IMG/VR virus record: IMGVR_UViG_3300025108_000259
Coordinates: 1 to 29,714 of that record
DNA length: 29,714 nt
Source: a virus
Reading direction: 5' to 3' (one strand)
This document shows positions 3,728-29,273 of this stretch, in pieces (positions within the stretch are counted from its first letter, which is position 1; each line of letters starts with the position of its first letter). Under the pieces are notes generated by a model. The model was not told where the DNA came from, did not search any database, and saw nothing but the letters and a program-made list of their open reading frames with translations. Both the position numbers and the translations under genes were made by a program.

Positions 3728-6700
3728 ATGACTAAATTTTTAAATAACATAAACTTAGAGGCAGAAAACGATATACAGTTTAAAACAGCTACAGGTACTA
3801 ATGCTGGTAAAATATCACAAACTGGTGATGACTTAGTTATAAGTAACGCTGTTGGTGATATATTGCTAGGTAATGGTAGTGACGATATATATATTGGAGA
3901 TGGTACAAACACTGTAGATATTAGATTTGAACAAGACATGGCTATATTTGCTGATTCTAGTTCAACAAGAACTCTAACTCTTGGTGGTGCAAATACAAAT
4001 TTAGTCTTAGACAGCCCAAGTATTAGTGGATCTATAATTTTACCTACTACAACTATAAATGGCAAAATGACATTTGGTACGGCAGCTGGTTATATACTAT
4101 TTGACTACGAGCCAACAACAGCTAGTGGAGAGTACTCATCAGAAGTGCCTTTGCTAAGAGTTGATAGGTCTGGTAGTGAGTTAACAATACTTTCTAGGGT
4201 AAGTAATAATGGTGCTGTTATTTTAGGTAATGATGATGGTGTTGCAATTTTAGCTGGTGATGTTAAAAGTGTAATAAAAGATAATTTAAACTTTGCAGGT
4301 GAAGAAGTAGTATTTGCTGCAGAAGCGGGTTTTAGTGCTTATGGTTTTCCTAATAACGATACATCTTGGTCAAATAGAAATCAGTTTAGATTTAGATCAG
4401 ATAGTGGTACTGCTAGTGAAAATGGTTTATACATAGGTGATGGTGGTAGTACACAGTTTATAGATTTAAGTAGAAACTTAACTGTTGCGGATGCAACTAT
4501 ATCAGGTAATACAACTTTTAAACCAAAACACTACACAGCATCAAATGATTTAAATAGTGATGTTAGAACTATATTTAGCACACATGATACAGATGGTTCA
4601 ACTTCAAATAAACCTGTAAACTGGTCTTCAATATATACTCTTGGTGGTAGTAGCAGAAATACATTACAAATAAGTACTAATGAAGATTACTCTGAATCTG
4701 GTATGTGGATTAGACAGTATAATGCTAACTCTGGGTCTCCACAAGGAACTGGTTATCAAAACTGGACGGAAGTGTGGACAACAAATAAGTTAACAGAAAC
4801 TAATAAAACTAACTACGACACTGCATACACTCATTCTCAAGCAGCACACGCGCCATCTAATGCAGAACAAAACGTACAGTCTGATTGGAATGCTACTAGT
4901 GGTGATGCGCTTATATTAAACAAACCAAGTATACCGTCTATCTCAGGTTTAGCTACAACAAGTTATGTTGATACTGCAGAGTCTGATGCTATATCCGCAG
5001 CGGCAACAGCTGCAGCCGCGAAATTTACAAGTACAGATGGTACAACAACAGGTGGAACCGATTACACTTTTAAAATAGATGACGAAAGTAATTTTAGTGG
5101 TAATAAATGGTATCATATTGCCACTATACCTAACACAAATGGTGGTTTGCACATTAGAGGTTTTATGTCTAATCATGTGGAAACTTTTGCATCACAGAAA
5201 TTTGATTTAGCAATTGCATGTAGAGAAGGTGGTAGTGGTGCCGATATAGAAATAACTGGTCAGTTAGATGTTTTGCACAACGCAACTTCTGGCAGTGATA
5301 GAGCTGGTATTAGGGTTATAAAAACCGCAGACTCATCTTATGATGAATACAAAGTGTACATAAGAACAACCAGGTATTCGATGGTTACTCTTAGATTAAC
5401 ACAAGAGGGTAGTGTAACATTTAATACTAGTCATAGCTCACCTTTAACATCAGAGCCAGCTGGTCTAGGTGTAGAATTAGATACGTCTACAACTGTAGAA
5501 GGTAATTATGTTGTAGATAATAGTACAATTAAAGAAATCTACCACGAGGGACATTTACCTACTTTAACAGAGCTAGGTGCTCAGGCCGCAGGGACATATT
5601 CTACAGCAACGGGTGTTGCAAACAATGCTGACGTAACACCTGGTTGGGTGCCTTCAGTAGACCCTAATTATCTAACAAGTCAAACTTCTCATGCTGATGT
5701 ACTTGTAGATGGCGACTTTACAAGTAATGGTCTTATGAAAAGAACATCAGCTGGTACATATACAATAGATTCAAATACATATTTAACAGCTGTTCCTTCT
5801 ACTTATGCATTAAAAACATATGTAGACCAAGCAGAAGCTGATGCAATATCAACTGCGGCTACAGCGGCTGAGTCTTATGCAGATGGTTTAGCTTCAAATT
5901 ACGCTACTGCTGCTCAAGGTTCAACAGCCGATTCAGCCCTACAATCTGTTCCTTCTACTTACGCTTTAAAGACTTATGTAGACACGGCTGTGGCAAATTT
6001 AGTAGATAATGCACCAGAAAATTTAAACACTTTAGCGGAGTTAGCTGAAGCTTTGAATGATGATGATGATGCTGTAGTAACTATTAACACTTCTTTGGGC
6101 AATAGATACACGAAAACAGAGTCTGATGCTAGGTATTTACAATCTTTACCATCACACAACCACGATGATAGATATTACACAGAAACTGAATCTGACGCTA
6201 GGTATTTACAGTCTTTACCTTCGCATAATCATGATGATAGATATTATACAGAAACTGAAGTTGACGCTTTTGCTGTTAAATTAACAGGTAATCAAACTAT
6301 ATCTGACAATAAAACATTTAGTGATGATGTTACAATTACTAACCAACTAACAGTAGATGGAGCTACTGACCTAAACGGTTTAATTACTATAAGTACGTCT
6401 ACTGGAGCAGCTGGAATGAGACTATATAATGAAACTAACACCGCTCAAATAGCAGATAGTTATAGTGGTAATACTTCTAAATCATACATATATTTTGATA
6501 CGGTATCAGGAAGTAATGATCCTGGGTATATAATGCACGAGAGCAGTACAAGTGAGGCGAACGAAGGTGTATTGCATTTAGTACCATCAGATGATAACTC
6601 TACTGGTGACTACGTGAGTATACATGGGACAAATGACGCTGACGTTTTAAAACTACATACTAGTGGTTTAATTGAAACTGCAAATTTACAATTAAATTTA

Positions 6701-8431
6701 AAATCCGGTAGTGGTGATGTTCTTGTAAGTGATGATATAGACATAAACGGTAATGCTGATGTATCTGGTACTTTAACTTCTGGCGCTCACACTATAAATT
6801 CTGCAACTGATTCTATTTTACAACTTAATCAAACAGGTACTGATAACGGTTGGAGTTATATAAACTTTAACACTTCTGGAACAAGAAATTATTTTATTGG
6901 ACAAGATGCAAGTAAAAACTTTGATATATATAATGACAATGTAGATGCTACTGCTATTGGTATAAGTTATGCGAATAATAATGTAACTTTTGGTGGTAAC
7001 ATCGTAATGGGTTCTGGTAAAACAGTTGATGGTGTTGATATTTCAGCTAGAGATGCTGTACTAACTTCAACAACAACTACTGCAAATTCAGCATTGCAAT
7101 CTGTACCTTCTACTTACGCGTTAAAAACATATGTTGATACAGCTGAATCGGACGCAATATCTACAGCAGGGACAAATGCAGCATCTGCTAACAAAGCATG
7201 GTCCACAATCACAAGTACTCCTACAACAATATCTGGTTACGGAATTACTGATGCTTTAGAGATTGGAGTAACAGCAACAACTGCAATGGCAGGTAATACT
7301 TCTATTCCAGCTGCAGAACAATATACTCAACACGAAAGCATAACACAAGCAACATCAAACGTGAGTAACTCAGGTAGAACTTATCTACAAAGTATAACAT
7401 TAGATAGTAATGGTCACGTTACCGGTGTCGCGACTGCTTCAGAAACAGTTGTTAACACAAACACACAAAACGACGCTACCACAACAAGGGGTTTCTTTTC
7501 TGGCTCAGGTATAAACACTACTACCGGTGTTATCACAAACACTCAATATTACAAAGCAACTTCTGAGGTTCTAGGTTTAGTTAAAATTGGTGAAGGTATA
7601 TCTATAGACGCTGGTGGTACGATTAGTGTTACTTTACATGGTAATGCTACTAGTGGAGACGCTGGTTTAATGTCTGCTAGTGACAAAACAAAAATAGATA
7701 CCATTGCTACTAATGCTGACGTTACTAATACTACTAATGTTACTTCAGCAGGAGCTTTGATGGATAGTGAGGTAAGTGTTACTAATATAAAAAATATTGA
7801 CCAAGCATTAGAGTCTGGCGCGGAACCTGAGTTTGGTACTGCTAACATGGAGGACAGTACTAACAAGCGTTTTATGACAGACGCTCAAGAGACTAAATTA
7901 GATAGCGTTGCCACAGGAGCTACTGCAAACGTTGGAGACGTTACTTTGTCTGGTACACAAACAATAAGTGGTAATAAAACTTTTAGTGGTAACACCTCAG
8001 CATCAGGAGCAATAAGTCAAAGCAACACAACACAATCAACAAACAAAAGTTCAGGCGCGTTTAAAACTTTAGGTGGTGTGGGTATTGCTAAAACACTTAA
8101 TGTCGGTGAAGATGTAGTTGCTTATGCGTCATCTGACAAAAGGTACAAAGATAATTTACAAGCAATTACAAACCCTATTGATAAAGTAAAAAGTTTAACT
8201 GGGTATACGTTTACTTGGAACGATAAGCACGAGCAGTTTAACGGCAACGATGATATTGGCGTAGTTGCTCAAGAAGTTGAAAAAGTATTTCCTGAAATAG
8301 TTGACACAAGAGATAATGGTTACAAAGCTGTTAAGTATGAAAAAATGGTTGCTGTGTTAATTGAAGCTATAAAAGATCAACAAAAACAAATTGATGAACT
8401 AAAAGAAAAGTGCAATGGCTGTTCCAAGTAG
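3728..8431 (+). CDS. Long tail fibre with C-terminal Peptidase_S74 intramolecular chaperone
   Basis: A 1567-aa protein beginning nine bases after the preceding stop. Residues 1-450 are Gly/Asn/Thr/Ser-rich beta-type repeats. The central shaft has repeated YALKTYVD and DAIS[TA]A segments that look like helical trimerisation stretches, then a perfect 23-residue tandem repeat carrying HNHDDRYYTE (metal-type HxH fibre motif). More beta repeats follow. The last about 100 residues form an S74 chaperone-of-endosialidase domain: the S-D-K-R-Y-K site with Ser1469 (codon 8132-8134), then GVVAQEVEKVFPEIV and KMVAVLIEAIKDQQKQ as the terminal helix. In this family the domain drives trimer folding and then cleaves itself off at the serine. 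The mature fibre would therefore end at about residue 1468. The protein is probably a trimeric receptor-binding fibre. No depolymerase domain is evident. Confidence 0.9.
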   Translation: MTKFLNNINLEAENDIQFKTATGTNAGKISQTGDDLVISNAVGDILLGNGSDDIYIGDGTNTVDIRFEQDMAIFADSSSTRTLTLGGANTNLVLDSPSISGSIILPTTTINGKMTFGTAAGYILFDYEPTTASGEYSSEVPLLRVDRSGSELTILSRVSNNGAVILGNDDGVAILAGDVKSVIKDNLNFAGEEVVFAAEAGFSAYGFPNNDTSWSNRNQFRFRSDSGTASENGLYIGDGGSTQFIDLSRNLTVADATISGNTTFKPKHYTASNDLNSDVRTIFSTHDTDGSTSNKPVNWSSIYTLGGSSRNTLQISTNEDYSESGMWIRQYNANSGSPQGTGYQNWTEVWTTNKLTETNKTNYDTAYTHSQAAHAPSNAEQNVQSDWNATSGDALILNKPSIPSISGLATTSYVDTAESDAISAAATAAAAKFTSTDGTTTGGTDYTFKIDDESNFSGNKWYHIATIPNTNGGLHIRGFMSNHVETFASQKFDLAIACREGGSGADIEITGQLDVLHNATSGSDRAGIRVIKTADSSYDEYKVYIRTTRYSMVTLRLTQEGSVTFNTSHSSPLTSEPAGLGVELDTSTTVEGNYVVDNSTIKEIYHEGHLPTLTELGAQAAGTYSTATGVANNADVTPGWVPSVDPNYLTSQTSHADVLVDGDFTSNGLMKRTSAGTYTIDSNTYLTAVPSTYALKTYVDQAEADAISTAATAAESYADGLASNYATAAQGSTADSALQSVPSTYALKTYVDTAVANLVDNAPENLNTLAELAEALNDDDDAVVTINTSLGNRYTKTESDARYLQSLPSHNHDDRYYTETESDARYLQSLPSHNHDDRYYTETEVDAFAVKLTGNQTISDNKTFSDDVTITNQLTVDGATDLNGLITISTSTGAAGMRLYNETNTAQIADSYSGNTSKSYIYFDTVSGSNDPGYIMHESSTSEANEGVLHLVPSDDNSTGDYVSIHGTNDADVLKLHTSGLIETANLQLNLKSGSGDVLVSDDIDINGNADVSGTLTSGAHTINSATDSILQLNQTGTDNGWSYINFNTSGTRNYFIGQDASKNFDIYNDNVDATAIGISYANNNVTFGGNIVMGSGKTVDGVDISARDAVLTSTTTTANSALQSVPSTYALKTYVDTAESDAISTAGTNAASANKAWSTITSTPTTISGYGITDALEIGVTATTAMAGNTSIPAAEQYTQHESITQATSNVSNSGRTYLQSITLDSNGHVTGVATASETVVNTNTQNDATTTRGFFSGSGINTTTGVITNTQYYKATSEVLGLVKIGEGISIDAGGTISVTLHGNATSGDAGLMSASDKTKIDTIATNADVTNTTNVTSAGALMDSEVSVTNIKNIDQALESGAEPEFGTANMEDSTNKRFMTDAQETKLDSVATGATANVGDVTLSGTQTISGNKTFSGNTSASGAISQSNTTQSTNKSSGAFKTLGGVGIAKTLNVGEDVVAYASSDKRYKDNLQAITNPIDKVKSLTGYTFTWNDKHEQFNGNDDIGVVAQEVEKVFPEIVDTRDNGYKAVKYEKMVAVLIEAIKDQQKQIDELKEKCNGCSK
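4961..7138 (+). repeat. Dispersed coding repeat [TS]YVD-x-AE-x-DAIS in the fibre shaft
   Basis: Three copies of VPSTYALKTYVD lie at 5792-5827, 5948-5983 and 7103-7138. A fourth, shorter relative (TSYVDTAESDAISAA) starts at 4961. Copies 1, 3 and 4 continue into AE-[AS]-DAIS-[TA]-A, an Ala-rich stretch likely to be helical. Copies differ mainly at third codon positions. They are read as recurring trimer coiled-coil modules that separate beta-rich shaft sections of the 1567-aa fibre. Confidence 0.8.
6116..6253 (+). repeat. Perfect 23-codon tandem repeat (HNHDDRYYTE fibre motif)
   Basis: Two adjacent 69-base units (6116-6184 and 6185-6253) encode the same 23 residues, T-E-S-D-A-R-Y-L-Q through H-N-H-D-D-R-Y-Y-T-E, and a third copy begins at 6254 (TEVDA) before diverging. 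The units differ at several synonymous positions (for example CAC AAC CAC versus CAT AAT CAT), so they are not a recent duplication. HxH pairs in fibre shafts are known to bind iron in T4 gp37-type tips. Metal binding here is inference. Confidence 0.85.
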
Positions 8432-10093: not shown

Positions 10094-10295
10094 AATATCT
10101 ATAGGTAAAGATTACAAGAATGACGCTATGCACTACGCTGTAGGACAAGAAGTATATGGTGGTCATACTATTTGCGATATTATAGAAGAAACTGATAAGT
10201 TTTCTGTTTACATAAGAAAAGCAAAAGAAGTAATACCTTGGAAAGATTTTAATAAAAATATGGCTATATCAGTGGAGTATAATTTACAATACTAA
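10074..10295 (+). CDS. Conserved-looking small protein of unknown function
   Basis: A 73-aa protein (MSKLIRKISIGKDYKNDAMH at the start). It alternates charged and beta-type segments: a VGQ-x-VYGGHTICDI strand-turn-strand and a FSVYIRKAKEVIPWKDF strand-helix. This looks like a compact single-domain fold without membrane segments. It overlaps the upstream gene by 20 bases, and its TAA shares its final A with the ATG of the next gene (TAATG), a typical coupled junction. The function is unknown to me. Its place in the operon upstream of terminase suggests a virion-assembly or DNA-packaging accessory. Confidence 0.65.
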   Translation: MSKLIRKISIGKDYKNDAMHYAVGQEVYGGHTICDIIEETDKFSVYIRKAKEVIPWKDFNKNMAISVEYNLQY

Positions 10296-10879
10296 TGAAA
10301 AGCATATTTGGTTTTATAATAGAACCTATTGGAGGTAGATATAACAACGTAAAAAAATTAGGTGAAAAAGAATTAGTTTTAAACACTGACATATTCAATC
10401 ACAAATATATAAATAGAAAAGCACGTGTTATATCTGCACCAATATTAAATAATACGACTGGTATAAAAAGTGGTGACGAAATAATAGTACATCACAATGT
10501 GTTTAGAAGATGGCACAACCAGGCGGGCATAGAGAAGAACAGTAGTAGCTTTATAAGTGAAAATAGATATAATATATACGCTGATCAAATATATGCCGTT
10601 AGATGTAAAGATACTTGGCGACCTTTAGATGGTTACATATTTTTACAACCGTTAAAAGAAACTAATGATTTTTCAGTAGAAAAAGAAAAGTTTATTGGTG
10701 AAGTTGTATACGGAGATAAAACTTATAAAAAAGGCGACATACTAGGATTTGTACATGTAGGAGCTAGATATGAGTTTGTTATAGATGGGCAGAGACTTTA
10801 TAAAGTCAACTTAAATCAAATTACAATTAAATATGAATATCAAGGAAACGAAGAAACGTATAATCCAAGCTGGGCATAG
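10295..10879 (+). CDS. GroES/Cpn10-like protein, apparently two-domain
   Basis: A 194-aa protein with two beta-rich halves. In the first half, RKARVISAPI, then GIKSGDEIIVHHNVF (about residues 56-70), resembles the 'G.V...G.....G....GD.V....' strand pair of co-chaperonin 10. In the second half, YIFLQPLKE, FIGEVVYGD, YKKGDILGF and YEFVIDGQRLYKV (about 114-180) closely follow the order of GroES strands, including the 'G-D-x-[VI]' turn and the 'Y-x-[VF]-x-[IL]-D-G-x-x-L-Y' end. A phage co-chaperonin could work with host GroEL on capsid protein folding, as T4 gp31 does. The long mobile loop is not obvious, so an architectural role of the fold is also possible. Its 3' end overlaps the next gene by 47 bases. 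Confidence 0.6.
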   Translation: MKSIFGFIIEPIGGRYNNVKKLGEKELVLNTDIFNHKYINRKARVISAPILNNTTGIKSGDEIIVHHNVFRRWHNQAGIEKNSSSFISENRYNIYADQIYAVRCKDTWRPLDGYIFLQPLKETNDFSVEKEKFIGEVVYGDKTYKKGDILGFVHVGARYEFVIDGQRLYKVNLNQITIKYEYQGNEETYNPSWA

Positions 10880-21065: not shown

Positions 21066-24000
21066 ATGGCAGAATTAAAGAGAAATTTTGGTAGAGGGCA
21101 GATGAACAAAGATAGCGATGAACGTCTAGTTAAAGACGGTACATATCGTGATGCTAACAATATACAGGTGTCTTCGTCTGATGGTAGTGATGTTGGGTCA
21201 GTTCAAACGCTGCTAGGTAACACAGAGGTAACTCCTAATGTTGTGCTTTCTGACTACTCTACTTGTGTCGGTGTTTACAAATTGCCGGAGTCTGATTTAA
21301 TATACTACCTTGTCTCTAGTCAAGGTCACCCTGGGTTACAAGGTTTTCAACCTTTAATATACAAAGATTTTGTAATAGAGTACGACACTGTAACACAACT
21401 AAGTAAGTATGTAATTACAGATATATTTAAAATTAAAGTAAACGCAAGTGCTAATGCGCAGAGTGGTGCTTCTTATATTGAGGTACCACTTGGTGCTTCA
21501 ACTACTATAAATAAAACCGGCATAAGAGTTGGTATGAAAATAACAGGGTCATTTACAAACTCTAGTGGAAGTTCTAAAACAATAGTTGGTCAAACAGTAG
21601 GTAACAATGGCACTTATTATGTAGGTGAACATCACAATGTAAAAGTAACTGATATAGTTAAAGCTACATCGTCTTGGAAAATATTTTTATCGTCGCCTAT
21701 ATATATGAACTCAGGTCAACAAATTATATTCAGAAGTGATAGAGTTTTAGAGTTTAACCCTTATGATAAAATAACATCCATAGATCACATAGACGGATTG
21801 TTATTTTGGACAGATAATGTTACAGAACCTAAAAAAATAAATATAAAAAGAAGTTTGTTAGGTACTGGTGGTATAGCTAGAGTAGTTGGTCATGATCCAA
21901 CTCAAACAAAAACTCACGCTACAAACCAAAGTAACCAACAAAAAAGAAATACAACTGGCTATACAAACAATCAAGACTTTCACACTAGACTAGTTATAGA
22001 ACGACCATCAACTGGTTATGAGGTTGCACTAAAACAAAACGATTATGAACCTGTTTACCTTGAGAAAGATCATATAACAGTAGTTAAAAAATATCCTAAA
22101 GCACCTTTAAAACTAGAAATGTCAGAAACTCCTATAGAGAGAGTTCCTGTTAATAGTAGTGGTAATGCACTAACACCTAACGCTACGTTTGGAGTACTGT
22201 CTTCTACTATAGTTTGGAGAGAAAATGGTGGTAGTGGCGATCCATACGATGCTGGTACAGCGGTTAATGGATTAGTATTTACTTCACCAGTAGATCTTAG
22301 AAAAGGAGATGTAGTTATATTTACTAATGACTTACAAGAACCAGCTAATGTTTTAGACTCAACAGATGCTCTTGTTAGACTTACTGTTACAAGTGGTCCT
22401 GGTGGTATGCCACAAAACGGAGGTAGTACCGGTCCTTATAATTTCTCAGTAGATAGTGTAGCTACAAATGTTAACACGGTGCCTGAAGTTTGGCAAGGTA
22501 GATTAGAAACTGAAAATGCACTATTTGAATTTAAGTTTCCAAGATTTTCTTACCGATGGAGATATGTTGACGGTGAATACTCTACGTTTGCTCCTTGGAC
22601 TAATGTAGCTTTTTTACCAGGTGCATTTGATTACATAGCTAAAAAAGGTGTCAACTTAGGTATGACCAATAGAGCTAAATCTATAAAGCTAAAAGATTAT
22701 TTCCACGAATTTGATTTATTCCCATCTGATGTTGTAGCTGTAGACCTACTATACAAAGAAGAGACTAGTCCAAATGTTTACACTGTAAAAACTATAACTA
22801 GAGAGAACGAACACCCAGAGTGGCCTAATAGAGCTCAGTCTAACTACAACCGTGGTGAGTATGTTTTAACATCAGAAATGATACACGCTGTTGTTCCTTC
22901 CAACCAAATACTAAGACCTTGGGATAACGTGCCTAAATCCGCGGCAACACTAGCTATAACAGGTAATAGATTAGTTTTTGGTAACTATAAACAAGGTTAC
23001 GACATAGAAGGTGATGTAAATTTAACTGTTAGTATGGATTCTGGGTATGGAGAAAACTATTTACAAGAAGGTGGTAGAGGTGAAAGATCTGTAAAAACAA
23101 TGAGAACATACCAAGTAGGTATTGTGTTTTCTGATGAGTATGGTAGAGAAACACCTGTTCAAGCACCTAAGAAAAGCAGTAGTGTTGTTGTAGACAAGAA
23201 ACTATCGTACAGAAACAACAGAATAAAAGTAGGTTTAGATTATGGTGGTACTTCTATACCAGCTTGGGCACAGTATTACAAATACTATATAAAAGAAACT
23301 TCTAACGAGTATTACAATTTAGTAATGGATCGTTGGTATGACGCAGAAGATGGTAACGTTTGGATTTCATTCCCTTCGTCTGAAAGAAATAAAGTAGACA
23401 TCGATACACATTTAATACTTAAAAAGCGCCACGACGATATAACACCTGTTAGAGAAAAAGCTAGGTATAAAATACTAGCAATAGAAAACGAGGCTCCAGA
23501 CTACATAAAAAGTAAAAAAATATCACACGGTAGCGCTCTTACAACTCAACAGACTGGTTCGGTACTAGCTACTAATGTTAACTTCCTTATTTCTAATAAT
23601 GATTTCAAGGCTACTTTTGGTGATAAGTTTATGGAAGAAGTGTGGTCTAAAGTTAGTAGTGGTAAAGGTTTTGCAAGGATAATAGGTAGCTCTGGAACTC
23701 AAACCGCAACTACTGATTGGCAAAGTATAGTTAGTATTAAAAAAATTGGAGCAACAAGTCCTAACTTCTCTGTTAGGGTTGCTAGCACTTTTGAAAACGC
23801 TGATATGACCAATTTACTTAGTGGTACTATTAACTACAAGATAGAGATTAGAGAAGATATTATACATAATAGACCAGAGTTTGATGGTAGGTTTTTTGTT
23901 AAAGTATATAAAGACTTGCTACTACAAAACTCTATAATGGTAGATTTAGATGCTACTCAAAGCATGACTCTTATAGATAGCTTTGATCTAAGACTTCTTA

Positions 24001-27000
24001 TCGGTGCTCAATCTTCAAATTCAGGGGGTTCAACCCAATACCACCCAACAACAACTGGTCCTTATGCGGGTTTAGATTTTAATGAAAATGCTTTTGCTGG
24101 AACAAACGTAAATTCACTAACATCAACAAACCAAGATGGTGAGTCTTTTGGAACTTTTAAATCACACCAAAGACTTCAGGATTGGTGGAAAAACTTATGT
24201 GCACATGGACAAAGCAAAGTTTATCTTGATGGTATCGAATGGTACAAGTATAACTGGAGAAGTCCTACTGGACATGTTAATCACAATGAAGCTAACGGTG
24301 TTCACTCGTCTCACTTAGGTGGTATTGGTGATGGTAACGGTGTTTTAAAACATTACAGTAGTTATAGTAAAATGTATTTAGGTTTTCCAAAATGGAGACA
24401 ACACCATAGCGCTACAGGTTGGGTTAGAAGGTTTTACACTACAATGAGAACAGTAGGGACGTTATTTAGATTTAGAGAGGATCCAAATCAAACTGTATAT
24501 AGGGTTATATCAGTTGGTGGAGTACAACAAAGTTATAACTATTCTAAAAGTGGTACAAACTCAGCTAAATCAAATGATGTTCAAGCTAAGAGTACAGCTT
24601 TTAATATAAACTTTGAAAGAAATGATGGTGGTGGAGCTATGGATCCTAATGCTTTTGACGTGCTAAGTTTAATGAAGCATGATTGTAGTTCTACAACACC
24701 ACTAGATATATTACAAGCTGACTACATAAGTGAGTCTGGTGGATCTGAACTAGCTACTGAAAATCCAGCTGTTTGGGAAACAGAACCAAAAGAAGATGTT
24801 GGACTTGATATATACTATGAAGCATCTATGGCTATGCCATTAAAAGTTACTGCAGAAAATAATGAGCTATTAATACCTATTGGATCGACATTTAAAGCTA
24901 GAAATGGTAGTGGTGTTTTTCATAAAGGAACCTCAACATTACCAGTTGATTTAACAGGTGAAGATGTTACTTATAAAATATTAGCAGTAAACTCAACAGA
25001 CAATGAAGATATAACTAGAATAACTGTCTACAACACCTTAGATGGCAGTATGGGATTAACCGATGATCTAGAGCATGATAGCTTTATATTTATTGATAGG
25101 TATGATGGTTCTCAAATACCAATATACATTGGTATTAACAACACTAACAACAAACACGTTGCTGGTGATGTTTATGTTGACCTTGTTACTGGTAACTTTC
25201 CACAAAATGTAGTATCAAATGGAATGCAACCATGGAGAGCTCCTCATTTTTCTGCAATGAAATTAGGTTGGTCTAATTGCTTTCAGTTTGGTAATGGTAT
25301 AGAATCAGACAGAATAAGAGATGATTATAATCAATCAACTATAGCTAACGGTGTTAAAGCATCTACAGTTCTAGCAGAGAGATACCAAGAAGAACACAGG
25401 TCTAGTGGTTTTATACACTCTGGAGTTTTCAACTCAATAAGTGGTGTTAATGATTTAAACCAGTTTATACAAGCAGAAGCTATAACAAAAGATTTGAATC
25501 CTAGTTATGGTAGTATTCAACATATGATAGCTAGAAATACAAACACTTTAGCTTTTTGTGAGGATAAAATTTTAAGCATACAAACAAATAAAGATGCGTT
25601 GTTTAATGCTGATGGAAGTTCTAACATACTATCATCAACTGTAGTTCTTGGATCAGCAACACCAATACAAGGTGAATACGGTATATCAACAAACCCAGAG
25701 TCTGTTGCTATAACTCCTGAAGCTATATACTGGTGTGATCAAGCTAGAAACCAAGTGTTAAAACTATCGGGTCAAGCATCAATAACAGTTATATCTGACA
25801 CTGGTATGAAGGATTATTTTAATGATAATTTAAAAGACTTAGATTATGTTATTGGTAGTTATGACGATAAGAAAAGTGAATACAACCTAACTACTTGTGT
25901 GAAGATACACAAGTTCCAATTAAGACCTATAACTAAAACAGTTTCGTATAGCGAGAAGTCTGGAGGTTGGAGTAGTTTTAAAGATTTTGATGGTTTAGAG
26001 TTTGGTGTTAGTTTAAATAATGAGTACTACACGTTTAGATATGGTAGCATGTGGCAACACCACACAAACAATGTTGCTAATAATTTTTACAACCAACAAT
26101 ACTATTCTGATATAACATTATTATTTAACGACAATCCTAGTTCTGTTAAAAGCTTTGGGGCTTTAAATTATGAAGGTACACAAGCAAGAATAACTCAGGA
26201 GTTGACAGATAATCAGTATTACAACTTAAACAACAAACAAGGTTGGTATGTTGAAACAATGAACACTGATTTACAAGAAGCTGAGAATATTGAGTTTAAA
26301 AATAAAGAAGGAAAGTGGTTCGCAACTGTAAAAGGCGTTGCATCTGATTTATCAAACTTAGACCCTAAAGAGTTTAGTGTTCAAGGTATTGGTGTTTACG
26401 ATGCAAAATCAAGTAGTGGTTCTACTTCAAATACTTACAACTTAACTGTAGCAGTTAGATCTCAATCTTCTACTGGTACTAATTGGGACACAACAGCTGA
26501 CTCAAGTGACTTTGCATTTTTAGATGGACCTACGATAGTAATGACAGAAGGTGTACCTACTGGCGTTGGGCAAGTATATGCAACTATCACTAATAACGTT
26601 TTAAACTCTCAAAATGTATTACAATACTCTGGGTTAAATTTAGATGCAGCTGATTTTACAGTGCCTGGTGGTACAGCTACAACTACTGGTTCTGGTAACT
26701 CAACAGTTTATGTTCACACTGCAGCTAGTGGTTGGAACGCAGATACTAACATTAGCAAAGTAGAATTAACAAACAATGGTATAGCTGGTGATGCTGGTAA
26801 TACGGTGAATGTACAGATATATTACAACTCTTTTACTATGCCTAGTGCTAATACAAATTTATTTGTAGATGTTGATTATAGTGGATCTGTAACCGCACCT
26901 ATAGTACAAGGAGCACCTAATAGAACTAGTTTATTTAGACTTAGCTTTTTAGACGCGCCAACTACAACTGGTGAAGGAGCGACAAACCCAGATCATATAG

Positions 27001-28424
27001 TCGTAACAAGAGGAACTGTAGCAAACATGACTAGAACTGCTGATAATGGTTACGCTGGTGGTTCAAACCCTAACTTTTTTACAGACAAACATACTGGTGT
27101 AGTGCCTGATGGCGCAACTACATTAGTGGCTAGTTATACTGTTACAGCTGATGCAGATTATCATTTAGAGCCGATATCTGGATCTAATGATGGAGTTGAG
27201 GTTGTTTGGTACCCTTTACCTCAAAATATAAATTATAGTTCTAATTATTCTTGGGTTGTTACAAACAACAATTACACTACATCAGGTTTGCAGAGTAATA
27301 TACAGTCTAGTAATATAGAAGTGTATTACACTCCACCAGCTGGAAGTGATCCAGCGGATTTTGATTCACTATTACATGATATAAGATTTACTCACAATGC
27401 TGTTGCTGTGCCAAACTCTACGCCTAGAGTTACATCTGTAGGAATGTTAGGTCAAGTTTTTGCCGGTGGACAACAGGTTATACCAATTACAACAAACAGT
27501 GTTGGTCACTATAGACTGCAGGTCGGTAAAAATAACTCAGGTAATACAGCTTTAACTGGAACATATAATTTCACTTCTGGAGCATGGGAATTTTCAAATA
27601 CAACAAACGTTGGTAGCTTTGAGGTTACAGCTGCTGATCTTGCTGTTAGCTCTGTGTATCAGCAAACTTTATATATACCTATTGATTCTAACGAAACTAA
27701 TGCTGGAGGAACTTACAGTATAATACTTTCAAATGGAAATAGTGGATCTGGCACAAACCTAGCTTTACAGTCTAACGTACCTGACGCTGTCAACGAGCAG
27801 ACATTTGAAGTGCTAGTAGAAACTGGAACTATAACATTAACTGGTGGTACTGAAACTTTTGATGATGGTGTTGTTACTACATCAGGTTCAACAGTTATAC
27901 CTAGTGCTAAAGAGTTAACTCAGTTGTCATCTACTAATGTTAAAACTTATGCTGTAGAGCTTACGTTTGCTAAACAAACCGGTGGATTAACCAAGAAAGG
28001 TGACGCTAATGGGGATATGCTTGATGGAGCTGGAGGTGTATACAAAACAGCTAGCGATATGGCTTCTGGAACTCAAAACTTAACTTTAACAAGAGTAACT
28101 GGTATTAAGGTTGGTCATGTTCTTCAAAATGACACTGGTCAAGGTTTTATTCCAGATGGTTCTATAGTAACATCGGTGAACACAGTTACAAAAGTTATTG
28201 GTATAAGTAAGGCAACAACAGCTCTAGTTCCACAAGGATCTTCTGTAGTTATAGAATCTGATTACAGTTATATATTTCTTGAAAGTGCAACTTTAGTAAA
28301 TGAAGCTGGTACACAAGCAACTGTAACAGGTACAATAGCTATAACTTCTTACGGTAGAAAAGGTAGTGCCACTGTACCTAATGGTAACATAACATTAAAA
28401 CCTAACTTTTTAACAATAACATAA
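21066..28424 (+). CDS. Giant tail stabilization/muzzle-type protein with long beta-rich C-terminal extension
   Basis: A 2452-aa protein. The N-terminus (FGRGQMNKDSDERLVKDGTY at 8-27, then RDANNIQVSSSDGSDVGSVQ) is the hallmark of the phage stabilization protein found in crAss-like and marine short-tailed phages. Residues about 122-228 look like an inserted Ser/Gly-rich domain before the core resumes at ITSIDHIDGLLFWTDN (236-251). Other core landmarks are YRWRYVDGEYSTFAPW, NRLVFGNYKQGY, GIVFSDEYGRETPV and, at about 1440-1600, GVNDLNQFIQAEAITKDLNP and GEYGISTNPESVA, a repeated strand pattern like a beta-propeller. Core homology seems to end near 1770. The remaining about 660 residues are Ser/Thr/Asn/Gly-rich beta repeats resembling adhesin or fibre domains. 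In relatives this protein closes the tail tip. Here the extension may add host contact. No frameshift is seen. Confidence 0.85.
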   Translation: MAELKRNFGRGQMNKDSDERLVKDGTYRDANNIQVSSSDGSDVGSVQTLLGNTEVTPNVVLSDYSTCVGVYKLPESDLIYYLVSSQGHPGLQGFQPLIYKDFVIEYDTVTQLSKYVITDIFKIKVNASANAQSGASYIEVPLGASTTINKTGIRVGMKITGSFTNSSGSSKTIVGQTVGNNGTYYVGEHHNVKVTDIVKATSSWKIFLSSPIYMNSGQQIIFRSDRVLEFNPYDKITSIDHIDGLLFWTDNVTEPKKINIKRSLLGTGGIARVVGHDPTQTKTHATNQSNQQKRNTTGYTNNQDFHTRLVIERPSTGYEVALKQNDYEPVYLEKDHITVVKKYPKAPLKLEMSETPIERVPVNSSGNALTPNATFGVLSSTIVWRENGGSGDPYDAGTAVNGLVFTSPVDLRKGDVVIFTNDLQEPANVLDSTDALVRLTVTSGPGGMPQNGGSTGPYNFSVDSVATNVNTVPEVWQGRLETENALFEFKFPRFSYRWRYVDGEYSTFAPWTNVAFLPGAFDYIAKKGVNLGMTNRAKSIKLKDYFHEFDLFPSDVVAVDLLYKEETSPNVYTVKTITRENEHPEWPNRAQSNYNRGEYVLTSEMIHAVVPSNQILRPWDNVPKSAATLAITGNRLVFGNYKQGYDIEGDVNLTVSMDSGYGENYLQEGGRGERSVKTMRTYQVGIVFSDEYGRETPVQAPKKSSSVVVDKKLSYRNNRIKVGLDYGGTSIPAWAQYYKYYIKETSNEYYNLVMDRWYDAEDGNVWISFPSSERNKVDIDTHLILKKRHDDITPVREKARYKILAIENEAPDYIKSKKISHGSALTTQQTGSVLATNVNFLISNNDFKATFGDKFMEEVWSKVSSGKGFARIIGSSGTQTATTDWQSIVSIKKIGATSPNFSVRVASTFENADMTNLLSGTINYKIEIREDIIHNRPEFDGRFFVKVYKDLLLQNSIMVDLDATQSMTLIDSFDLRLLIGAQSSNSGGSTQYHPTTTGPYAGLDFNENAFAGTNVNSLTSTNQDGESFGTFKSHQRLQDWWKNLCAHGQSKVYLDGIEWYKYNWRSPTGHVNHNEANGVHSSHLGGIGDGNGVLKHYSSYSKMYLGFPKWRQHHSATGWVRRFYTTMRTVGTLFRFREDPNQTVYRVISVGGVQQSYNYSKSGTNSAKSNDVQAKSTAFNINFERNDGGGAMDPNAFDVLSLMKHDCSSTTPLDILQADYISESGGSELATENPAVWETEPKEDVGLDIYYEASMAMPLKVTAENNELLIPIGSTFKARNGSGVFHKGTSTLPVDLTGEDVTYKILAVNSTDNEDITRITVYNTLDGSMGLTDDLEHDSFIFIDRYDGSQIPIYIGINNTNNKHVAGDVYVDLVTGNFPQNVVSNGMQPWRAPHFSAMKLGWSNCFQFGNGIESDRIRDDYNQSTIANGVKASTVLAERYQEEHRSSGFIHSGVFNSISGVNDLNQFIQAEAITKDLNPSYGSIQHMIARNTNTLAFCEDKILSIQTNKDALFNADGSSNILSSTVVLGSATPIQGEYGISTNPESVAITPEAIYWCDQARNQVLKLSGQASITVISDTGMKDYFNDNLKDLDYVIGSYDDKKSEYNLTTCVKIHKFQLRPITKTVSYSEKSGGWSSFKDFDGLEFGVSLNNEYYTFRYGSMWQHHTNNVANNFYNQQYYSDITLLFNDNPSSVKSFGALNYEGTQARITQELTDNQYYNLNNKQGWYVETMNTDLQEAENIEFKNKEGKWFATVKGVASDLSNLDPKEFSVQGIGVYDAKSSSGSTSNTYNLTVAVRSQSSTGTNWDTTADSSDFAFLDGPTIVMTEGVPTGVGQVYATITNNVLNSQNVLQYSGLNLDAADFTVPGGTATTTGSGNSTVYVHTAASGWNADTNISKVELTNNGIAGDAGNTVNVQIYYNSFTMPSANTNLFVDVDYSGSVTAPIVQGAPNRTSLFRLSFLDAPTTTGEGATNPDHIVVTRGTVANMTRTADNGYAGGSNPNFFTDKHTGVVPDGATTLVASYTVTADADYHLEPISGSNDGVEVVWYPLPQNINYSSNYSWVVTNNNYTTSGLQSNIQSSNIEVYYTPPAGSDPADFDSLLHDIRFTHNAVAVPNSTPRVTSVGMLGQVFAGGQQVIPITTNSVGHYRLQVGKNNSGNTALTGTYNFTSGAWEFSNTTNVGSFEVTAADLAVSSVYQQTLYIPIDSNETNAGGTYSIILSNGNSGSGTNLALQSNVPDAVNEQTFEVLVETGTITLTGGTETFDDGVVTTSGSTVIPSAKELTQLSSTNVKTYAVELTFAKQTGGLTKKGDANGDMLDGAGGVYKTASDMASGTQNLTLTRVTGIKVGHVLQNDTGQGFIPDGSIVTSVNTVTKVIGISKATTALVPQGSSVVIESDYSYIFLESATLVNEAGTQATVTGTIAITSYGRKGSATVPNGNITLKPNFLTIT

Positions 28425-28425
28425 T

Positions 28426-28779
28426 ATGCCAGTATCACTAACATTTATTAATCCTTTAAACGCGTCTTGCCAGGTTGGTGATTTTGCTTACTATGTACCG
28501 ACTTCTAGCTCTGGTGGTTTCTCCGTTGCATCACAATCCAACATAGTTTCCATAGGACCAATAAGTTCTATAACAGGTACCAACGCTAATCCTACTATAA
28601 CTATTAATAACAACTTAAGTGTACCACCATCAAATGCTTATATATTTTTTGCTAAAGATAACAAAGCTAATTTAAGTAGTTTATTAGGTTATTTTGCTGA
28701 GGTTAAACTAAAAAACACTGGAACTGTATACGCAGAGTTGTTTGGAGTAGCAGCTGATACGTTTGAAAGTAGTAAATAA
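28426..28779 (+). CDS. Small beta-rich structural protein of unknown function
   Basis: A 117-aa protein starting MPVSLTFINPLNASCQVGDF. It has alternating beta strands (FAYYVPTSSSGGFSV, IVSIGPISSITG, NAYIFFAKDN) and ends with GYFAEVKLKNTGTVYAELFG. I recognise this closing strand pair as a recurrent feature of small marine phage proteins next to the tail stabilization gene. The ATG lies one base after the preceding stop codon, so it is co-translated with the giant tail protein and may bind it. It has no signal peptide or transmembrane segment. The function is unknown. Confidence 0.7.
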   Translation: MPVSLTFINPLNASCQVGDFAYYVPTSSSGGFSVASQSNIVSIGPISSITGTNANPTITINNNLSVPPSNAYIFFAKDNKANLSSLLGYFAEVKLKNTGTVYAELFGVAADTFESSK

Positions 28780-28820: not shown

Positions 28821-29273
28821 ATGAATAAAGATATTAAGTTATCTACTAGAAAGAAAATCTTAGATTTTCAAAATGCTCTAGTTGATAATGCTGATGAGGT
28901 TAACATCGTTACACATCACGACTCAAAGATATTTCCTTTGAAACATACTTTTGCAGATGGTATATACGTACGACAAATGTCTATGGATGCAGGATCGGTA
29001 GTTGTTGGAGCAATACACAAACACTTACATGTTTGGTTTTTATTAACTGGACATATATCTGTTGTCACAGAAGATAGCGTAGAAGATTATATAGCACCGT
29101 GTTATGTTGTAGCAACACCAGGAACAAAAAGAGTAATACGTGCAAACGAAAAAAGTATATTTGTCAATATACATAAAAACCCTACAAACTCACAAGATAT
29201 AGAGTGGTTAGAAAAAGAGATTGTAGCAAAAGATTTTAAAGAATATGAAGAATACATTAATCAAAATAAATAA
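28821..29273 (+). CDS. Cupin-like small protein
   Basis: A 150-aa protein. After a helical N-terminal segment, residues about 45-120 form a cupin-type double-stranded beta-helix pattern: GIYVRQMSMDAGSVVVG, then IHKHLHVWFLLTGHISVV with His66, His68 and His70 in the place of the first metal-binding motif. IAPCYVVATPGTKRVIRAN and a last strand FVNIHKNP with His118 follow, in the place of the second motif. The C-terminus is an acidic helix. Similar cupin-like proteins are common near lysis and internal-protein genes in marine phages. They may bind a metal or sugar-like ligand, but no reaction is established. The start is the first ATG of the frame. The next gene begins four bases after the TAA. 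Confidence 0.72.
   Translation: MNKDIKLSTRKKILDFQNALVDNADEVNIVTHHDSKIFPLKHTFADGIYVRQMSMDAGSVVVGAIHKHLHVWFLLTGHISVVTEDSVEDYIAPCYVVATPGTKRVIRANEKSIFVNIHKNPTNSQDIEWLEKEIVAKDFKEYEEYINQNK

Follow-up and report, generated by a model that had tools for sequence, protein, structure and literature searches.

The muzzle protein gp44 of PhicrAss001 (PDB entries 7QOK and 7QOL) is a single chain of 1371 amino acids. According to the available part of PMC10172136, relatives of gp44 vary in length in the crass and IG2 domains and not at the C-terminus, and the crass domain of crAss001 has been proposed to touch the cell surface. In the marine relative Cellulophaga phage phi38:1, the muzzle protein gp097 holds the terminal beta-barrel and the last two C-terminal strands in one chain. 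The Cellulophaga phages phi19:3 and phi13:2 (Pachyviridae) have a muzzle encoded by two genes, gp120 and gp121, and in phi19:3 the first muzzle gene carries an extension with Ig/cadherin domains. The intact muzzle C-terminus has the nozzle/hub proteins gp12 of T7 and gp10 of P22 among its closest fold matches, but these are shorter chains, and in these phages separate fibres or spikes are found instead of a built-in arm. A precedent for the binding of host receptors by tail tubular proteins is provided by Vibrio phage OWB (PMC7241545, in its available part).

The window analysed here is a stretch of 29,714 nucleotides of viral DNA (IMG/VR record IMGVR_UViG_3300025108_000259), in which genes for terminase, portal, capsid-type and structural PHROG proteins lie, in this order, upstream of the muzzle gene. 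The muzzle ORF (positions 21066-28424, + strand) encodes the tail stabilization protein, of 2452 aa, and its core (21066-26426, + strand; residues 1-1787) contains propeller, Ig and crass regions recognised by homology to crAss001 gp44. Its end follows the conserved strand FSVQGIG (residues 1770-1776). A preliminary description of this DNA had set the end of the core near residue 1770 (its position 26400 corresponds to residue 1779), and recognisable muzzle homology was indeed found to stop near residue 1787. The phrog_14478 match extends to residue 1790, Pfam family PF25729 (crAss_MUZ_C) is matched at residues 1671-1755 with 34.5 bits, above its gathering cut-off of 27, and the match to a profile of intact muzzles stops at residue 1787 (1788 in the program output, where the ORF is numbered from one codon upstream of the ATG). 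In searches against the sequences of solved structures, phmmer returned a single match for the window muzzle (E 0.63), and the profiles of intact muzzles gave nothing at 0.01 and one unrelated match at 1.8. Gp44 was reached solely by direct comparison and by fold: the profile of intact relatives matched its homologous C-terminal propeller half with an E value of 9.6e-15 in a search space of 177,635 sequences, and the fold of an intact relative matched with Z 9.7 over residues 1054-1371. Over the matched range, the window muzzle core exceeds its phi38:1 counterpart by about 580 residues.

Immediately downstream of the muzzle ORF lies an ORF of 117 aa (28426-28779, + strand), whose start is separated from the muzzle stop by one nucleotide (TAA-T-ATG, 28422-28428, + strand). 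PHROG, HMM, profile and fold matches show that this small ORF encodes the C-terminal domain of the muzzle itself, with the rest of the barrel and the last two strands; its strands apparently form part of the conserved muzzle end. PHROGs 38031 and 18548 both match the muzzle as well as the small ORF, the larger family at muzzle residues 1625-1761. On a profile of intact C-termini with 504 positions, the large ORF of the window covers positions 42-409 and the small ORF positions 414-502, and a profile-profile comparison of the intact C-terminus with the small ORF gave a probability of 98.7 (E 2.7e-16, 93 columns). An HMM of the small ORF was built from 22 genomes, the E values given here being those of a 9-sequence set. 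This HMM matched the very C-terminal ends of three intact muzzles, from phi38:1 (2.6e-8), Gundel (3.8e-5) and elemoF (2.2e-5), as well as the C-terminal genes of the split muzzles of Panino (6.9e-14) and phi19:3 (gp121, 2.5e-10); it gave no match to crAss001 gp44. The small ORF is present in all 22 complete close relatives, the window counted.

The break was placed on the intact C-terminus of phi38:1 as modelled by AlphaFold, a model of moderate quality overall (mean pLDDT 62.6) with ten-residue blocks of the small barrel at 73-91. The break falls between the barrel strands 394-404 and 407-410, which are followed by the last two strands. The top PDB matches of this model were the two crAss001 muzzle entries, aligned through the last gp44 residue, 1371, and further matches were mainly podophage nozzle/hub proteins (P22, SU10, T7). 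From this fold alignment and a reading by eye, the strands of the small ORF appear to be equivalent to the last strands of gp44. Since profile position 409 lies in the large ORF and position 414 in the small one, the chain is broken in a hairpin of the small beta-barrel. Sequence comparison thus establishes that the muzzle chain, compared with intact relatives, is interrupted where the first strand of its last predicted barrel leads into the second, that the break holds a putatively adhesin-like module of about 435-1080 aa, and that the remaining ~115 muzzle residues are encoded as a small downstream protein. By eye, gp44 has a short loop at the place where the window clade has the broken barrel and a module of 665 aa. 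Unlike the window, phi38:1 gp097 shows neither module nor split, and the gene that follows it is, by eye, unrelated to the small ORF. The window therefore does not encode the whole muzzle in one chain with its own C-terminal strands; with the last domain in a separate ORF (28426-28779), its muzzle is a variant and not the standard crassvirus muzzle. The annotation is to be corrected accordingly, the small ORF after the muzzle being the missing muzzle piece and not an orphan.

The adhesin-like module (26427-28421, + strand; residues 1788-2452) is fused in frame to the muzzle core and is homologous to stand-alone ORFs of relatives. A Ser/Thr/Asn/Gly-rich region of beta type and about 660 residues had been described at this place, and both its composition and the AlphaFold model bear this out for residues ~1788-2452: the four amino acids make up 42.9% of the module vs 32.6% of the muzzle core, in which no stretch of 665 aa exceeds 34.7%. 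On the contrary, the repeats that had been attributed to it were not recovered, with no hit from Tandem Repeats Finder and only weak off-diagonals in a profile self-comparison (E of at least 0.18, the best value). Nor is the module a C-terminal tail, as had been assumed, because the last domain of the muzzle sits in the next gene. Phi38:1, elemo and Gundel have muzzles with no counterpart of it, a protein-level comparison of residues 1788-2452 with 50,697 phage records gave no match, and the window module had no match in Pfam or PHROGs.

The structure prediction that the preliminary description had proposed as a check gave an essentially all-beta extension. In this AlphaFold model, obtained from 22 sequences (mean pLDDT 69.4), blocks of the extension were mostly at 70-90 and nearly all beta, and much of the modelled muzzle part (model residues 69-217) was below 50. 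Foldseek matched the window model to strings of Ig-like domains in tandem Ig-like proteins, at E values of about 1e-3 and with very common folds; the tail tip of phage Chi and the tail tube of phage Mystique were among its best fifteen matches. The top match among viral models was an uncharacterized protein of Virus NIOZ-UU157 (E 2.8e-8). The crAss001 muzzle was not among the PDB matches listed for the window model, in which the equivalent part has low confidence. Comparison with VIA-align pointed to two domains in the module. Residues 2117-2252 (27414-27821, + strand) are predicted to form a macroglobulin/Ig-like beta-sandwich, with Z 8-9 to domains of complement C3 and factor XIII, at an identity of 15% or less and for a common fold. 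Residues 2322-2398 (28029-28259, + strand) are predicted to form a small beta-barrel that resembles tail tube and tail tip domains of siphophages (9n71_A, Z 10.6, rmsd 2.0 A over 72 aa; 8vjh_B, Z 9.8). The split barrel of the muzzle and the 2322-2398 barrel both match the same solved tail proteins. Homology between these two barrels was considered, as was homology involving a VGM-like stretch near residues 125-235; the sequence gave no convincing match in either case. Near the start of the module, the linker NWDTTAD (26481-26501, + strand; residues 1806-1812) resembles by eye the muzzle stops of relatives with a separate module, where the muzzle ORF mostly stops at ..WD or ..AD.

The break of the window type, referred to as site B (profile 409|414), is shared by many uncultured phages. 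Of the 194 sequences examined, 172 gave matches for the muzzle core as well as the small domain, and the matched core part shared one ORF with the small domain in three of these 172 (phi38:1, Panino and phi19:3); with duplicates removed, 99 loci had core and small domain in separate ORFs. In addition, 278 sequences were placed on a profile of 492 positions, and 87 of them were dropped as duplicates in core sequence. Among the 191 distinct sequences that resulted, 125 were broken at site B, 18 were intact, 16 were broken at a second site (site A), 2 fell in another class, 29 were without a C-terminal part (off the contig or none found) and one was without a match, counts that are skewed toward the window type because window proteins served as queries. 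Three arrangements were observed at site B: the module is fused to the muzzle, as in the window; it forms a separate ORF, with the muzzle stopping ~21-50 residues past the core; or part of it is fused and a separate ORF follows. One further locus (L187) shows a bare split with no insert, its ORFs lying 27 nt apart. Module length was 435-852 aa in the fused form and reached 1079 aa in the stand-alone form. The ATG of the small ORF lies near the preceding stop in all 125 distinct site-B loci, and within 11 nt in 90% of them. The earlier idea of an adhesin on the tail tip stands in so far as there is an extra all-beta, adhesin-like module that is absent from the muzzles of cultured relatives. It does not stand as a one-off fusion, since the module occurs in all complete close relatives, is a separate gene in 40 of the 92 rows of the tree described below, and lies inside the former muzzle chain. 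Whether relatives carry the region as part of the core had been suggested as a counter-check, and the answer was mixed: the complete close relatives all have the module, but the distant ones are without it.

Site A (profile ~260) was represented by 16 distinct loci, including the cultured phage phi19:3. The chain of phi19:3 and phi13:2 is broken at 254|260, about 150 profile positions before the window break at 409|414, so that an independent event is indicated; gp121, of 241 aa, holds the whole barrel in these phages. Extra residues, from 288 to 1313, were found on the N-terminal parts of 13 of the 16 site-A loci, and Ig, cadherin(-like) or TSP3 domains scored above the Pfam cut-off in seven of the eight extensions tested. 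The site-A extension of one locus (L221, 7757-11611) had nine matches to thrombospondin type 3 repeats. A third break point was seen in Maribacter phage Panino (L029), where two successive, overlapping ORFs cover profile positions 1-132 and 131-502.

The relationship between fused and separate modules was analysed on a tree of 92 muzzle cores, of which 41 were fused, 40 separate, 10 partial and one intact; eight short matches (L161, L091, L112, L182, L086, L178, L180 and L187) were left out. The fused label changes 12 times on this tree, at least eight of these changes being forced by well-supported branches, vs 30.1 changes expected for shuffled labels. A single-linkage BLAST cluster contained 103 of the 111 module segments, and the window module matched stand-alone ORFs, for instance those of L060, L061, L057 and L107. 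Bacterial Ig/cadherin domains were above the Pfam cut-off in 5 of 11 stand-alone modules tested at this site. Identities of core vs module were 93% and 64% for L061/L060, 90% and 59% for L107/L094, and 87% and 53% for L059/L102. Faster divergence of the module was not universal, as the two values lie close together in some near pairs (96% for the core and 92% for the module in L001/L002). Wholesale exchange of modules was also considered, and in none of the pairs did almost identical cores go with unrelated modules. The muzzle has a second highly variable region at residues ~950-1200 (nt 23913-24665), near the crass-domain area, with identity-window means of 19-43% and about as variable as the module.

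Altogether, we consider it fairly probable that these phages have a split muzzle of two or three chains, with a variable adhesin-like arm for host contact at its seam, at the tail tip. Assembly or sequencing errors might have produced the break and the small ORF, all the more as the loci are mostly metagenome contigs. Yet on the same contigs the portal was broken in 0 of 25 cases, the capsid-type gene in 0 of 25, a 331-aa gene in 0 of 26 and the N-terminal part of the muzzle in 0 of 27 (totals that count truncations at contig ends), the split recurs at one place in 125 distinct loci, and an analogous muzzle of two genes is known from cultured Cellulophaga phages. Errors are for practical purposes refuted, their probability being close to nil, and the locus is a real feature: a muzzle variant with an adhesin-like module at the seam, and not a new kind of system. 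A frameshift or readthrough that joins the large chain and the small ORF, leaving the muzzle as one chain with an internal adhesin insertion, would agree with the window ORFs being 1 nt apart and nearly contiguous in profile coordinates. It is nonetheless highly improbable, given that the frame of the small-ORF start relative to the preceding stop varies among the 125 loci (58, 47 and 20), that the frame can be kept or changed at the upstream junction when the module is separate, that in the window a stop lies in the small-ORF frame three codons ahead of the ATG, and that no shared slippery site was noticed in an unsystematic view. The variable frame together with the close spacing favours coupled re-initiation over a conserved frameshift or readthrough.

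Under the split-muzzle reading, the small protein would be made by coupled translation, as the spacing suggests, and would complement the strands of the large chain by docking on it in trans, so that the C-terminal end of the muzzle is restored in each hexamer subunit. That every piece is conserved, and that the chain is broken in a hairpin, suggests assembly in trans. The module may then project as a string of Ig-like domains and contact the host surface as a secondary adhesin, a role to which the adhesin-type domains of stand-alone modules and site-A extensions, the faster divergence in many pairs and the tail-tip position all point. Alternatively, the extension could be an enlarged structural domain that serves muzzle assembly and makes no host contact, in keeping with its conservation in all complete close relatives and with the likeness of the 2322-2398 barrel to structural domains from the tail tubes and tips of siphophages. 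We regard this as unlikely, because the module is missing from intact muzzles and from the bare split of L187, has diverged further than the core in many pairs, varies widely in length whether fused or stand-alone, and in some stand-alone forms carries Ig/cadherin domains.

The host-contact arm would have its anchor in the closing domain of the muzzle chain, and its engagement could for this reason loosen the split barrel and perhaps help gate opening, which is a weaker suggestion than contact itself. The coupling of host binding to tail opening, already raised in the preliminary description, is at this stage speculation. It is conceivable, if rather doubtful, that the split is kept as a working part, and that a pull on the arm upon host contact unzips the two-polypeptide barrel, frees the last strands and opens the gate; if this were true, the independent splits at two or three places, all within one half of the protein and most of them with adhesin modules, would be convergent inventions of one mechanical trigger. 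The question bears on how contact with the host is communicated to the tail gate in short-tailed phages, and the fused and stand-alone arms at a fixed seam offer natural pairs for testing host binding and anchoring. We found no earlier report of split muzzles or of C-terminal muzzle adhesin modules in a search of titles and abstracts, with subscription literature largely outside its reach. The available parts of PMC10136315, PMC12386605, PMC11054128 and PMC13288928 contain no description of a split muzzle or an adhesin module, and split-muzzle proteins are not mentioned as virion mass-spectrometry identifications in the part of the last of these, a 2026 paper, that was available.

Regarding the gene neighbourhood, the window has a separate tail-fibre-like gene of 1567 aa at 3728-8431, with matches to several tail-fibre PHROGs, so that the muzzle arm would be an additional host contact. 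A relative of the small ORF was detected on a 14.8-kb contig (L280) in a MAG named Maricaulis, the sole locus from a genome collection; this is probably a misplaced virus contig, and no host is drawn from it. A GroES-like co-chaperonin is encoded at 10295-10879 of the window, according to a PHROG match. Finally, the small muzzle piece is followed by an ORF of 150 aa (28821-29273), which matches the PHROGs short tail fibre and tail fibre adhesin and is cupin-like by eye.
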